Shown piece after piece: positions 11,275-31,385 of a DNA stretch of 64,000 nucleotides. The notes under the pieces were generated by a model. The model made no database searches and was not told the DNA's origin. It worked only from the letters and a program-made list of their open reading frames with translations. This stretch comes from Oceaniferula flava (lineage in GTDB: Bacteria > Verrucomicrobiota > Verrucomicrobiia > Verrucomicrobiales > Akkermansiaceae). Made by a program: the position numbers and the translations under genes. The stretch lies in the NCBI RefSeq assembly GCF_016811075.1, contig NZ_JAFBGL010000010.1, positions 62,001-126,000 of the forward strand, written 5' to 3'. Position 1 is the first letter of the stretch. Every line of letters starts with the position of its first letter.

Positions 11275-13398
11275 TTACTTGTTCTTCTCTTCCTCACGCT
11301 TCTTGACCTCGGCGATGACCTCGTCGGCCACGTTCTTAGGACATGCAGCGTAGTGGGAGAACTCCATGGAGAACTGGCCACGACCGGATGTCATGGTGCG
11401 AAGGTCACCGATGTAGCCGAACATGTCGCTCAGTGGAGCATCGGCTTTCACGCGGATGCCGGTAGGTGTGCGGTCCTGCTCCTTGATCATACCGCGGCGG
11501 CGGTTGAGATCGCCGATGACGTCACCCACGTTGTCTTCTGGAGTGAAGACGTCGAGCTTCATGATCGGCTCGAGGAGTGTTGGTCCGGCTTTCGGGATGG
11601 ACTGACGGTAAGCGGCCTTGGCGGCAATTTCGAAGGCAATGGCGGAGGAGTCAACGGCGTGCTGAGCACCGTCAACCAGAGTCACCTTGAAGTTCAAGCA
11701 GGGGAAGCCGGCGAGAACACCTTTGTCCTTGGACATTTTGAAGCCTTTTTCAATCGCAGGCCAGAATTCCTTCGGCACATTACCACCGACAACTTTGGAT
11801 TCGAATTCGAAATCGACACCTTCTTCCGGGTCAAGTGGCTCGATGATGTAATCAATCTTACCATACTGACCGGAACCACCGGACTGCTTCTTGTGGGTGT
11901 AGCTGTCTTCGATGCGCTTGGTGATGGTCTCGCGGTAGGCAACCTGTGGTTTACCCACTTCGACTTCCACCTTGTGGGTGCGCTTGAGGATGTCCACCTT
12001 AATGTCGAGGTGAAGCTCGCCCATGCCCTTGAGGATGGTTTCGCCGGAGTCCTGATCGGTCTCAACGATGAAGGTAGGATCTTCTTTCACCATCTTGCCG
12101 ATGGCTGTGCCGAGCTTCTCAGCATTGGCCTTGTCCTTGGCTGCCACAGCGATGGAGATCACTGGATCCGGGAACACCATTGGCTCGAGAGTGGCTGGGT
12201 GGTCTTTGTCACAGAGAGTGTGACCGGTCTGGACGTTCTTCAGTCCGACCAGGGCGACGATGTCACCGGCCTGTGCGCCGTCCAGCTCGATACGGTCGTC
12301 AGCGGACATCTCAACGATGCGGCCGACACGTTCGGTCTTGCCGGTGAAGGTGTTCAGCACGGTGGCACCTTTCTCAAGTTTTCCGGAGTAAATACGGGTG
12401 AAGGTCAGGGCGCCATACTGGTCATCCATGATCTTGAATGCGAGCGCACGGAGCGGGCCGTCCGGGGTGACGGTGGCGAACTCGCCGGTCTCGTTACCTT
12501 CGGGGTCAACCTCTGGCTGAGCGGGAACTTCGGTAGGGGAAGGGAGGTAGTCGACCACGGCGTCGAGCACCAGCTGCACACCTTTGTTTTTGAAAGCGGA
12601 TCCACAGTAAGTTGGGAAGAAGGCCAGCTCGATGGTGCCCTTGCGGATGCACTTCTTGAGGTCTTCGATGCTTGGCTCGTTACCGTCGAGGTATTCCATC
12701 ATCATCTCATCGTCCTGCTCCACGGCAGTTTCGATGAGTTCGGCACGGTATTTCTCCACGTCGTCGACCATGTCGGCTGGGACGTCTTGGATTTCGTAGT
12801 TCTCAGGCTGACCGGAGTCATCCCAGACCCAGGCTTTGCGGGTGAGAAGGTCAACCACGCCGGTCATGTTGTCCTCGATGCCGATTGGCAGGACCATGAC
12901 GAGCGGCTTGGCTGCGAGCACGTTTTTGATTTGGTCGACTACGCGGTAGAAGCTGGCACCTGTGCGGTCGAGCTTGTTGACGAAGATAATACGGGCAACC
13001 TTGGATTCGTTTGCGTAGCGCCAGTTGGTCTCGGATTGAGGCTCAACACCACCAGATCCACAGAACACGCCGATACCACCGTCGAGAACTTTGAGCGAAC
13101 GGTAAACTTCCACAGTGAAGTCAACGTGACCGGGAGTATCGATGACGTTGAAGCGGAACTTGTCTTTGGCCCACTGATTGCTGCTGCCACCCCAGAAGCA
13201 ACTGACAGCGGCGGACTGAATAGTGATACCGCGCTCGGCTTCCTGCTCCATGAAATCGGTGGTAGCTTCACCATCGTGAACTTCGCCGATTTTGTGGGAT
13301 TTACCTGTGAGCTTGAGGATGCGTTCCGTGGTCGTGGTTTTACCAGCGTCCACGTGGGCGAAAATACCGATGTTTCTGTAGAGAGAAAGGTCTGACAT
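11275..13398 (-). CDS. fusA: Elongation factor G, second paralogue
   Basis: This 707-aa translational GTPase has all five EF-G domains: P-loop AHVDAGKTT (about 14-22), DTPGH, NKLDR, domain II, domain III-IV ([13 protein letters not shown]) and domain V ([22 protein letters not shown]). It differs clearly from the EF-G in the str operon 2 kb away: RGITIQSAA rather than RGITITSAA, and [20 protein letters not shown] after G3. From memory it is close to the second EF-G of some marine gammaproteobacteria and planctomycetes. Such extra EF-Gs may be specialised for translocation or ribosome recycling; which applies here is unknown. It has a strong own terminator and an AT-rich leader without a Shine-Dalgarno site. 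Confidence 0.93.
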
Positions 13399-15130: not shown

Positions 15131-17284
15131 ATGTCTGAGAATCCCAATCATCCCAAGCGCCCATATCCTCTGGAGCGTACGCGGAATATTGGGATTGCTG
15201 CGCACATTGACGCCGGTAAGACCACGCTCACCGAGCGTATTCTGTTCTACACCGGAATGATCCACCGGATCGGTGAGGTGCACGATGGTGCTACCGTGAC
15301 GGACCACATGGAGCAGGAGCGCGAGCGGGGGATTACCATTACCTCCGCCGCTGTCACCTGTGAGTGGATCCAGAAGAAGAACGACGGTGTCTTTAAGCTC
15401 TTTGAAAACCAGAAAGAGCGCATTAACATCATCGATACTCCCGGTCACGTTGATTTCACCGCCGAGGTCGAGCGTTCGCTCCGTGTCCTCGATGGTGCGA
15501 TTGTGGTCTTCTGCGGTGTGGCTGGAGTTCAGCCGCAGACAGAGACCGTTTGGCGCCAGGCCGACAAGTATCAGGTGCCTCGCATCGTCTTTGTCAATAA
15601 GATGGACCGCACCGGGGCCGACTTCGAAAGCGTCTTTGCCGACGTGAAGGCGAAGTTCGGTGTCAATGCTGTCCGTATCCTCATTCCGATCGGCTCCGAA
15701 GAAAATCTTCAGGGCCAGATCGATGTCGTCAACATGAAGGCCGTCATCTACAAGGATGACGACACCATGGGCTCCACCTTCGATATCAACGATCTCGAAG
15801 GTGATCTCCTCGCTGAAGCCGAATCGGCTCGTGAGGAACTCGTTTCCATCCTCTGCGACTGTGACGAGCAGCTCGGTGAGAAATTCCTCATGGAGGAAGA
15901 GATCACCTCAGCCGACATCAAAGCCGCCCTTCGCCGCGCTACCATCGCCAATGCGGTGGTTCCGGTTGCTGGCGGTTCCGCTTTTAAAAACAAGGGGGTT
16001 CAGTTCTTGGTCGACGCTGTTGTCGACTACCTGCCAAGCCCGCTCGACATTCCTGCTGCCGTTGGTCACGAACCTGGTGACGAAGAGGTGGAGGTGCTCG
16101 CCAAGACCGACGATAACGAACCGTTCTGTTCCCTCGCATTCAAGCTATGGGCAGACAAATATGTCGGTAAGCTCGTTTTCTTCCGCGTTTATTCTGGCAC
16201 CGTCTCCAAAGGGGACATGGCCTACAATCCACGCACCCGCAAGAAGGAGCGCATCGGTCGTCTGATCAAAATGCACGCCGACAAGCACGAGGACATCGAG
16301 ACCTGTTATGCGGGTGATATCGCCGCCATCGTCGGACTGAAAAGTGTCCAGACCGGCGACACCATCTGTGAGCAAAAGTTCGACATCATGCTCGAACCAC
16401 CACTTTTCCCAGAGCCCGTCATTTCCATGGCTGTCGAACCCAAAACTGTGGTCGACCAGGAAAAGATGTCCATCGCTCTCGCTCGTCTTTCCGAGGAAGA
16501 TCCTACCTTCTTGGTGAAGACCGACGAAGAAACCGGCCAAACCATCATCTCCGGCATGGGTGAGCTTCACCTCGAAGTCATCGTCGATCGGATGATGCGC
16601 GAGTTCAAAGTGGCTTGCGGTGTCGGTAAACCACAAATCGCCTACCGCGAAACCATCACCCAGCCACACGGCGGTGAAGGCAAGCTGGTCAAGCAGTCCG
16701 GCGGCAAAGGCCAATACGGCCACGTTGTGCTCGACGTCGCTCCCGGCGAAAAAGGCAAAGGTCTTACCATCGATAACCAAGTTGTCGGCGGTGCCATTCC
16801 TAAAGAATTTATGAATGCCGTCTTCTCCGGTGTTCGCGAAGCCATGACCAATGGCGTCATCGCTGGCTACCCAGTCGTCGATGTCCACGTCAACGTCACC
16901 GATGGCTCCTACCACGATGTCGACTCCAACGAGAACGCGTTCAAAATGGCAGCTATCTTCGCCATGAAAGACGCATTCCGCCAGGCCGGCCCCATCCTCC
17001 TTGAACCCGTCATGGACGTTGAGGTGGTCACTCCTGAAGAATATCAGGGCGACATCATGGGCGATCTCAACCGTCGCCGCGGTCAGATCCAGGAGATCGA
17101 AAACAAACCTTTGCATGCTGTGCTTAAGTGCAACGTGCCTCTCGCAGAGATGTTCGGCTACTCCACCGCCGTTCGCACTCTTTCCAGTGGTCGCGCCGAC
17201 TACACCATGAAACCAGCCAGCTTTGAGCAAGTCCCACAAAACGTTGTGGATGAGCTCACCAACGACTACGCATACGCCAGTTAA
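15131..17284 (+). CDS. fusA: Elongation factor G (str-operon copy)
   Basis: 717-aa GTPase that drives tRNA-mRNA translocation and, with RRF, ribosome recycling. It has P-loop [39 protein letters not shown], the domain IV loop [11 protein letters not shown] and domain [17 protein letters not shown]. Its position after rpsG marks it as the canonical EF-G. A short insertion (about residues 77-92, [13 protein letters not shown]) follows the switch I region. The tuf gene normally next in this operon is absent: rpsJ starts 41 nt after the stop. Confidence 0.97.
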
Positions 17285-20256: not shown

Positions 20257-20526
20257 ATGCCACGCTCACTCAAAAAAGGCCCATTTGTTGATCAGAAGCT
20301 TCTCGCTAAGATCGACGCCGCTGAAGCCAGCAAGGACAAAAAGCCCATCAAAACATGGAGCCGCAAGTCCGTCATTACTCCTGACTTCGTAGGTCACACC
20401 TTCCACGTCCACAACGGCAAGTCATTCGTGACCGTCTACGTGAACGAGAACATGGTCGGCCACAAGCTCGGTGAATTCTCACCAACACGTATCTTCAAGG
20501 CACACGGCGGTATCGGTAAGCGCTAA
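20257..20526 (+). CDS. rpsS: 30S ribosomal protein uS19
   Basis: 89 aa, head of the 30S subunit. [18 protein letters not shown] and the C-terminal [15 protein letters not shown] are typical. In most bacteria rplV follows at once; here a 750-bp gene for an exported protein lies between them. Confidence 0.98.
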
Positions 20527-20570: not shown

Positions 20571-21320
20571 ATGTCAGTCAACGCGCACATCACCTCAGCA
20601 CTCGCCGGAGTCCTTCTCCTCGGCGCTGGGGTTCCGTGCCAGGCGCAGGCGGGTCATGGTGCCGGGGCAGGGGACAAGGATCGCCAGATCCGCCTGCTGG
20701 AACGACAGCTTGATAAAGTCAAAAACCAGAACCTCGTATTATCACGTGACCTCGCCGTTTCCAAGAAACGTGAGGCCGAGCTCTCCAAGAGCGTGAACGA
20801 GCTTCGACTGCGTTTTGCCGCACTCGGCAATAACCTACTCAACGGTGGCGAGGATGCCATTCTCGAGGCGGTAAAAAATGCAGAAGTGCTCGATAAACGA
20901 AATTCTGCTACGGAAAAAGCCGTTCATAACTTGATGGCAAATTTGCGTGAATACCTACGCACAGCTATCACAGCGGACCCTGCAGCCAGGGTTCGTCTGG
21001 AAACTTCGATTAGAGAGCTTGACGCAGCCCTCGGTTTAAGGCAAAAGCCGCGCCCGCAGATTGCTCAAGGTAATCTGCAGCAAGCAAAAATCATCAGCAT
21101 CGACGCCGAAAGCGGACTGCTGGTTATTAATGCAGGTGAGAATCAGTCCGTTCGACGCGGCATGACTTTCGCCATATTGCGCGGTAACCGCAAGGTGGCC
21201 GAGGCAATCGTTGCTGAAACCCGCAAGGACTTCAGTGGCGTATTACCCACCGAGCTTGAAAATCCAAAAGACCAAATTCGCGCAGGCGACATTGCATCCA
21301 TACAAACCGAACAACGATAA
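20571..21320 (+). CDS. Exported coiled-coil protein inserted in the S10 operon
   Basis: 249 aa, no family that I recognise. It begins with a signal peptide (hydrophobic ITSALAGVLLLGAGV, likely cut near CQAQA). A long charged helical stretch follows (about 35-90, with heptad-like RLLERQLDKVKNQNLVLSRDL), then a helical middle. The C-terminal domain (about 170-249) reads AKIISIDAESGLLVINAGENQSVRRGMTF...RAGDIASI, a small beta-rich module also seen C-terminally in exported planctomycete and verrucomicrobial proteins. It has no ribosomal-protein features, yet sits in the same strand and rhythm between rpsS (44 nt) and rplV (39 nt), so it should be co-transcribed at high level. Its adenine-richer tail and its content do not look like an insertion-element gene. 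Confidence 0.85.
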   Translation: MSVNAHITSALAGVLLLGAGVPCQAQAGHGAGAGDKDRQIRLLERQLDKVKNQNLVLSRDLAVSKKREAELSKSVNELRLRFAALGNNLLNGGEDAILEAVKNAEVLDKRNSATEKAVHNLMANLREYLRTAITADPAARVRLETSIRELDAALGLRQKPRPQIAQGNLQQAKIISIDAESGLLVINAGENQSVRRGMTFAILRGNRKVAEAIVAETRKDFSGVLPTELENPKDQIRAGDIASIQTEQR

Positions 21321-21359: not shown

Positions 21360-21839
21360 ATGGAAGTTAAATCCACTTACAAATACGCCCGCATCTCGCC
21401 TAAGAAGGCTCGTGATGTTGCCCGTGCCATTCAAGGCATGCCCGTTTCAGACGCTCTCGATGCGCTTGCTTACACACCTCGTAAAGCAGCTGCGCTGATC
21501 GGCAAGACGCTGAAAAGCGCTGTCGCCAATGCTGAGAACAACCACGAGCTGATTGCTGATGACCTCACCGTCAAAGAAGCAACCGTGGGTGACGGTCCTA
21601 CTTTCAAGCGCTTCAAGCCACGTGCCCGCGGATCCGCAGGTGCTATCCGCAAGCGCACCAGCCACCTTTACATCATCCTCACCGATGAGGAGGAAATCCC
21701 TGAGCCACGTGAACGCTCATCCAAGCCGAAGAAACGCAGCGTCGTTGCCAAGCCTAAAGCTAAGAAAGAAGCAGCTCCTAAGAAAGAGGCCGCTCCTGTC
21801 GAAGCAGAAGAAGCCAAGGCAGAAGATGCCGCTGAGTAA
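21360..21839 (+). CDS. rplV: 50S ribosomal protein uL22 with long C-terminal tail
   Basis: 159 aa against about 110 in most bacteria. Residues 1-117 are the normal uL22 (YARISPKKARDVARAIQGMP, and the tunnel hairpin FKRFKPRARGSAGAIRKRTSHL). The extra 40 or so residues are low-complexity, first basic (KPKKRSVVAKPKAKKE) and then Ala/Glu-rich. The tail would protrude from the core fold; its role is unknown. Confidence 0.97.
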   Translation: MEVKSTYKYARISPKKARDVARAIQGMPVSDALDALAYTPRKAAALIGKTLKSAVANAENNHELIADDLTVKEATVGDGPTFKRFKPRARGSAGAIRKRTSHLYIILTDEEEIPEPRERSSKPKKRSVVAKPKAKKEAAPKKEAAPVEAEEAKAEDAAE

Positions 21840-24410: not shown

Positions 24411-24980
24411 ATGACACCTACACTACTAACATACTACAAGGATAAGGTAGTCCCGGCTCTGACTAAAGAGCACGACTACAAAAACCCGCATCAAGTGCCA
24501 GCACTTGAGAAAATCGTCGTCACCACCCACGTTGGATCTGCATCCGACCGTAAACAAGCTGTGGAAGACGCCATCGAAGACATCTCCAAGATCACCGGCC
24601 AGAAGCCTAGCATCTCCTACGCCCGTAAGAGTGTTGCGAACTTCAAAGTGCGCGAAGGTGAAGCTGTGGGTGCTCGCGTTACCCTTCGCGGTAGCCACAT
24701 GTGGGAATTCCTTGACCGCTTTATCAACATCACCGCTCCGAACATTCGTGACTTCCGCGGAATTTCACCCAAGAGCTTTGATGGCCGTGGCAACTACGCT
24801 GTAGGTATCAACGATCAATCGATCTTCCCTGAAATCGAGCTCGACCAAATCAAACGTCAGCTCGGATTCGACCTCATTTTTGTCACCACCGCCAATACCG
24901 ACGATGAAGGCCGCGCGCTGCTCAAAGCGCTTGGAATGCCTTATCGTGAAAACAAGAAAAACGACGACGAAGCTGCTTAA
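24411..24980 (+). CDS. rplE: 50S ribosomal protein uL5
   Basis: 189 aa. It binds 5S rRNA and contacts P-site tRNA. The family features are VPALEKIVVTTHVGSAS, GQKPSISYARKSVANFKVREG and RDFRGISPKSFDGRGNYAVGI. The gene for uS14 (rpsN), normally next, is missing: rpsH starts 44 nt later. Confidence 0.97.
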   Translation: MTPTLLTYYKDKVVPALTKEHDYKNPHQVPALEKIVVTTHVGSASDRKQAVEDAIEDISKITGQKPSISYARKSVANFKVREGEAVGARVTLRGSHMWEFLDRFINITAPNIRDFRGISPKSFDGRGNYAVGINDQSIFPEIELDQIKRQLGFDLIFVTTANTDDEGRALLKALGMPYRENKKNDDEAA

Positions 24981-25024
24981 TCAGTGGATCGCAAATCATA
25001 ACCATCTAACGAATTACAAGCACT

Positions 25025-25426
25025 ATGGCAGTTTTAAGTGACCCCATTTCTGACTTTCTCACCCGTCTCAAGAACGCATCACGCGCAAGCAATGAGTTCT
25101 TCACCGCTCCTCATTCCAAAACCAAGGAAGCCATCGCCAAGATCCTCGAAGACGAAGGCTACATCTGGAACTACGAGGTAAGCACCGACGGCAAGTTCAA
25201 AGAACTCAAAGTCAAAGTCAAATACTCCGATAACGGCACTCCCGTTCTCACGGATGTGAAGCGCGTTTCCAAACCTGGAATTCGCCGCTATGTTGGTGCA
25301 GGAGAAATCCCGCGTGTCCTCAATGGCCTCGGCATCTCTATCGTCTCCACCTCCAAAGGACTGAAGACAGGAACGCATGCCCGTAAGGAAAAACTCGGCG
25401 GCGAACTGCTCGCATTCGTCTGGTAA
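25025..25426 (+). CDS. rpsH: 30S ribosomal protein uS8
   Basis: 133 aa. It binds helix 21 of 16S rRNA, and in E. coli it is the spc-operon repressor. It shows SDPISDFLTRLKNASRA, and the C-terminal LNGLGISIVSTSKGLKTGTHARKEKLGGELLAFVW, the rRNA-binding end. It directly follows rplE. Confidence 0.97.
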   Translation: MAVLSDPISDFLTRLKNASRASNEFFTAPHSKTKEAIAKILEDEGYIWNYEVSTDGKFKELKVKVKYSDNGTPVLTDVKRVSKPGIRRYVGAGEIPRVLNGLGISIVSTSKGLKTGTHARKEKLGGELLAFVW

Positions 25427-31007: not shown

Positions 31008-31118
31008 GATCGCGACTAAAAAGTAGCCGGAATCCGCTTGAACGCGCGGGATTCCTCGAATTTGAGCTTGCTTGCCATCTCTCCAGACGTTAATCCCCCT
31101 GCACATCAATCACTTCCT

Positions 31119-31385
31119 ATGGGTAAGCAACACAAAAAAATCATCAAACGCAGCCGCCGCAAGCAGTATCTGAAGCGCAAGAACGAGCAAGCCAAGAGCA
31201 GCGTAGTTCGCAAGGAATCAGCACCAGCTAAGAAGACCGTGAAAAAAGCAGCCGCTAAAAAAGCAGCGACCAAGAAAACGGCTGCCAAGAAGACCGCTAA
31301 AAAAGCTGCAACCAAAAAAGTAGCAGCTAAGAAGACCGCTAAAAAAGCAGCGAAGAAAGCTGCCCCTAAGAAGGACGAGGAGTAA
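31119..31385 (+). CDS. Small histone-H1-like lysine/alanine-repeat protein
   Basis: 88 aa, extremely basic. The N-terminus GKQHKKIIKRSRRKQYLKRK is followed by repeated KKAAAKK/KKTAKKA units to an acidic end (KKDEE). Such tails bind DNA non-specifically in eukaryotic H1 and in bacterial H1-like proteins. The N-terminal basic block looks conserved rather than repetitive, so it may be a distinct RNA- or DNA-binding element. I start it at ATG 31119; 27 upstream codons are open but do not resemble it. The same type of repeat begins RpoD in this window. A good terminator follows. Confidence 0.85.
   Translation: MGKQHKKIIKRSRRKQYLKRKNEQAKSSVVRKESAPAKKTVKKAAAKKAATKKTAAKKTAKKAATKKVAAKKTAKKAAKKAAPKKDEE

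Follow-up and report, generated by a model that had tools for sequence, protein, structure and literature searches.

The junction between rpsS and rplV is among the most stable gene neighborhoods in bacteria. In the Oceaniferula flava DNA analyzed here (the window, 64,000 nt in length), this junction holds an open reading frame (ORF) of 249 codons with an ATG start, inside the S10/spc-type operon. This raises the question of what the gene encodes, how it came to lie there, and whether its position matters. A sequence-only reading had placed the ORF between rpsS and rplV on the same strand, with spacers of 44 nt after the former and 39 nt before the latter, and both the coordinates and the Pfam matches of the flanking genes to S19 and L22 agree with this (Table 1). 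Across the order, the two spacers have medians of 25 and 23.5 nt. In the Pfam search, the 249-aa protein gave no significant match and no ribosomal one, and a literature search found no account of the gene. Taken as a whole, the data make it likely that this is an old, dispensable envelope scaffold gene, phylum-specific within the Verrucomicrobiota sampling, vertically inherited and transcribed together with the ribosomal genes.

Table 1. Features of the rpsS-rplV junction in the window.
Feature	Position	Strand	Basis
rpsS (ribosomal protein S19), upstream neighbor	20257..20526	+	Pfam Ribosomal_S19, E 4e-38
Helical/coiled-coil protein of 249 aa, predicted to be exported, with a FlgT_C-like barrel at the C terminus	20571..21320	+	ORF, phylum-wide homologs, AlphaFold2 model
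Putative signal peptide at the N terminus, with an AQA-type end (about residues 1-26)	20571..20648	+	Hydrophobicity test, 117 homologs; cleavage site predicted
Long helices, residues 34-84, 94-131, and 137-154; conserved A-L-G turn at 84-86	20670..21032	+	AlphaFold2, alignment
C-terminal six-stranded barrel, residues 172-244	21084..21302	+	AlphaFold2 (residues 165-249), Foldseek
rplV (ribosomal protein L22), downstream neighbor	21360..21839	+	Pfam Ribosomal_L22, E 2e-37

Other features of the window deserve mention in their own right. At 24411-25426 (+), rpsH directly follows rplE, and rpsN (S14) is missing from its usual place; no L30 gene was seen ahead of rplO. Two elongation-factor-G-like genes lie close together, at 11275-13398 (-) and 15131-17284 (+), one of them divergent from the str operon. 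The small protein encoded at 31038-31385 (+), MGKQHKKIIKRSRRKQYLKRKNEQ..., is basic and has a Lys/Ala-rich tail resembling histone HC2 (weak Pfam HC2 match); it may represent a known small PVC signature protein.

Homologs of the 249-aa protein were found in 56 of 58 relatives. Among members of the genus, dN/dS (NG86) ranges from 0.08 to 0.19 in the ten least diverged pairs, with a median of 0.15 over 32 pairs. The ORF is thus a real gene under purifying selection, with dN/dS of about 0.1 to 0.2, and the low ratios together with the homologs exclude a chance ORF. Within the order, all 54 genomes that carry both flanks on the contig, Akkermansia muciniphila included, have a homolog between rpsS and rplV; two further genomes are cut by contig ends and fall outside this count. 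A search with a narrower alignment, which covered Akkermansiaceae-type records only, returned the gene flanked by rpsS and rplV at 41 of 41 named loci, including A. muciniphila, Roseibacillus, and Haloferula luteola.

The survey was extended to the class by searching for the S19 and L22 Pfam domains, which yielded 138 genomes with both genes on one contig. The rpsS-rplV gap measures at least 500 nt in 74 of these, 380 to 499 nt in 13, 100 to 379 nt in 10, and less than 100 nt in 41. In terms of gene content, the insert is full-size in 74 genomes, one of which shows no detectable homolog; another 13 carry a short form with the barrel only, and the remaining 51 have no insert. Where the DNA of the gap was read, spaces of 380 nt or more contained a homolog in all cases except one, and smaller spaces contained none. 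The exception is a 576-nt gap (G107/L097) that possibly holds a decayed or replaced copy. Reading of 11 mid-size gaps showed the short form to be 111 to 130 aa long, consisting of an N-terminal hydrophobic segment and the C-terminal barrel only. Losses were repeatedly clean, with 25 to 60 nt remaining; two 0.9-Mb genomes without the gene retain 175 and 340 nt with no detectable homolog. One junction (L105, 949-2622) encodes a 558-aa version with a long low-complexity N-terminal region rich in Pro, Thr, and Ala.

To trace the history of these states, a tree was built for 127 genomes from S19 and L22 plus portions of L2 and S3; gene-less genomes were included on purpose, so that the rows are not a random draw. 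The states require 11 changes on this tree, compared with 48.6 in shuffles, and its starred branches force at least 8 changes for the gene-less state. The gene occurs in both halves of the midpoint-rooted tree, whose root serves for drawing only and was not inferred. These observations fit a single ancestral insertion that predates the divergence of the phylum's classes, with some ten later losses and one truncation; given such a root and such a choice of rows, the number of losses is approximate. The short-form genomes make up one clade, together with gene-less lineages, indicating that a single event probably removed the helical part and that the barrel is the retained core. In addition, pairwise identity of the protein tracks that of the ribosomal proteins (Spearman 0.60, over pairs that are not independent), as vertical descent predicts. 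The complete loss in many lineages (51 of the 138 class genomes; the two 0.9-Mb genomes) means that the gene is not needed for life.

The sequence-only reading had also proposed a check of the junction across the Verrucomicrobiota, and this located homologs at the same place in several classes. For the other classes of the phylum, tabulated positions put a homolog between rpsS and rplV in 15 sampled genomes, and direct reading adds two more (L136 and L138). This phylum-wide synteny, together with dN/dS, rules out a recent insertion as well as a chance ORF. In 21 genomes, rpsS and rplV are widely separated or split across contigs, and there the homolog is found immediately upstream of rplV. Direct reading of three of these split loci showed the gene heading an rplV-rpsC-rplP run next to a divergent gene in L126 and L143. 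In L133 (68-2729), where the S10 operon is split, the homolog and rplV are immediately preceded by genes named tatA- and tatC-like from sequence inspection. It is thus rplV, and not rpsS, that is the constant partner. Further members of the split-operon families lack the gene or have a homolog elsewhere (an ortholog or a paralog). The neighborhoods of paralogs that were examined revealed no consistent functional partner. Tandem membrane-anchored coiled-coil paralogs were seen in Akkermansia and other genomes (L186, 4819-6410; L191, 3413-5287; L192, 4576-6421).

The gene had been suggested to be a lineage marker. Its conserved, phylum-wide place bears this out, and no recent insertion underlies it; as a strict marker, however, it falls short, with roughly ten losses inferred within a survey that covered Verrucomicrobiota. 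An uncharacterized exported protein in so stable a junction could nevertheless serve as a gene-order marker for the phylum, and the full, barrel-only, and absent states offer a natural series for studying function. The position itself might also be a frozen accident, in which an ordinary envelope protein sits at a place without regulatory meaning, kept since breaking the S10 operon is costly. The repeated clean losses, the lack of the gene in roughly one third of the class genomes sampled, and its low codon adaptation (see below) are in line with this. However, the link to rplV was kept in the 21 genomes broken between rpsS and the gene, so the place survives large rearrangement, and we consider an accident possible but on balance doubtful.

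Regarding expression, neither a promoter-like site nor a same-strand terminator-like site was found around the gene. Together with the short spacers, the lack of such sites is consistent with co-transcription of rpsS, the gene, and rplV, without proving it; the operon-like membership noted earlier is likewise upheld. By contrast, the proposal that the protein is made at ribosomal-protein levels found no support. Measured against the ribosomal genes of the window, codon adaptation of the gene is 0.473, versus 0.64 to 0.80 for the ribosomal genes themselves (leave-one-out); other long ORFs of the window average 0.588. Over 53 loci of the order, the gene averages 0.597 versus 0.710 for neighboring ribosomal genes and falls below the lowest ribosomal neighbor in 39. 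There are also families in which its value is as high as that of its ribosomal neighbors or higher. Because of the low codon adaptation, ribosomal-level production is unsupported for the O. flava genome. These values also bear on the idea that co-transcription was itself selected, with a barrel protein that must rise and fall with growth. Such growth-envelope coupling would agree with phylum-wide persistence in a growth-regulated operon and with the predicted export of the product, but codon use argues against high production and related sister lineages live without the gene, which makes the idea unlikely.

The protein is predicted to be exported by Sec. A hydrophobic core near the N terminus (at least 1.6 on the Kyte-Doolittle scale) is present in 110 of 117 homologs, compared with 3 of 106 interior-stretch controls. 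Lipobox-like patterns occur in 11 of the 117, and several outer members have N termini resembling membrane anchors. The window protein has no K/R ahead of its hydrophobic core, which is unusual but not disqualifying for an export signal. This conserved signal, combined with the lack of a ribosomal Pfam match, argues against a ribosomal protein of the S10 operon, i.e., a cytoplasmic component. A cytoplasmic action on the ribosome or on rplV translation, as a regulator or assembly factor, would account for the ribosomal-operon position and the constant adjacency to rplV, and the mature window protein is basic (pI 9.7). Yet the median mature pI over the homologs is only 5.9, the N termini are hydrophobic and in some cases lipobox-like or anchor-like, and the barrel has its closest relatives by sequence among periplasmic proteins, leaving this explanation highly improbable.

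The full-length AlphaFold2 model, based on 80 relatives, displays the helices and the barrel listed in Table 1 with a mean pLDDT of 86 and a pTM of 0.49; given this pTM, the placing of helices and barrel relative to each other is not settled. Modeled alone, the barrel reaches a pLDDT of 94.9 and a pTM of 0.84. The invariant or nearly invariant residues of the wide alignment, besides the initiator Met, are G189, G197, R204, R218, G239, and D240, all in the barrel. The export signal and the modeled architecture support the exported helical and beta protein originally described.

The reading that we favor, an old and dispensable envelope scaffold gene, would unfold as follows. The gene would have inserted into the S10 operon, immediately 5' of rplV, at a time when the classes of the GTDB Verrucomicrobiota had not yet diverged, with vertical inheritance since. 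The S10 mRNA would include it, so that the supply of protein would follow growth, and weak codon adaptation would keep its level below that of the ribosomal proteins. After export by Sec, the product would be periplasmic or, in some lineages, tethered through a lipoprotein anchor or a membrane helix. The helical part may span or oligomerize, and the FlgT/TsaP-like barrel may dock onto an envelope partner, making the protein a scaffold or assembly factor that is useful but, as the many losses imply, dispensable. A bolder version, in which a phylum-wide envelope assembly factor has its synthesis wired to ribosome production by its place before rplV, strikes us as rather unlikely; if true, growth and envelope building in Verrucomicrobiota would be directly linked at the genetic level. 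The locus offers a directly testable case of ribosome synthesis coupled to the cell envelope.

Several known systems resemble parts of this protein. When the barrel profile was compared with solved structures, TsaP was the best sequence match (PDB 3jc8; E 2.2e-5). FlgT_C (PF16538) matches 14 of 65 members at E <= 0.01 (best, 1.7e-5), with no match above the curated Pfam cut-off in either 30 or 58 genomes searched. By Foldseek, the modeled barrel appears to share the fold of the FlgT C-terminal barrel, the top matches being 8z5n (TMq 0.70) and 3w1e (TMq 0.66) with a probability of 1.00 and E values of only 0.006 to 0.008. Close behind in score come numerous F1-ATPase N-terminal barrels, so fold likeness alone is not specific. 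FlgT (3w1e, H-ring; 8z5n, LPHT ring) has in common the barrel fold, the G-V-R-x-G-M and final G-D pattern, and an extracytoplasmic setting. However, it is a flagellar H-ring protein of three domains whose gene belongs to a flagellar locus, whereas the protein described here combines helices with one barrel in a ribosomal context. With TsaP, which is associated with the type IV pilus secretin, the likeness is limited to the C-terminal barrel; TsaP has an N-terminal LysM, in contrast to the helical region and ribosomal-operon context found here, and the listed Pfam matches of 80 members include no LysM. MreC shares the order of export or anchor segment, coiled coil, and barrel, with weak profile and fold similarity, but it has two barrels and belongs to the mreB locus, unlike the single barrel encoded outside that locus here, and only 1 of 80 members has a Pfam MreC match. 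Filing under FlgT_C, TsaP, or MreC was rejected on these grounds (Pfam cut-off, LysM, or second barrel and Pfam MreC match missing), although the barrel may work like one of the FlgT_C/TsaP type. As for the genomic setting, secY, adk, map, and rpoA are near-universal non-ribosomal genes in ribosomal operons. Like them, the rplV-adjacent gene is a non-ribosomal gene kept within the S10/spc cluster; unlike them, it has no assigned function, is lineage-specific, and encodes a protein predicted to be exported.
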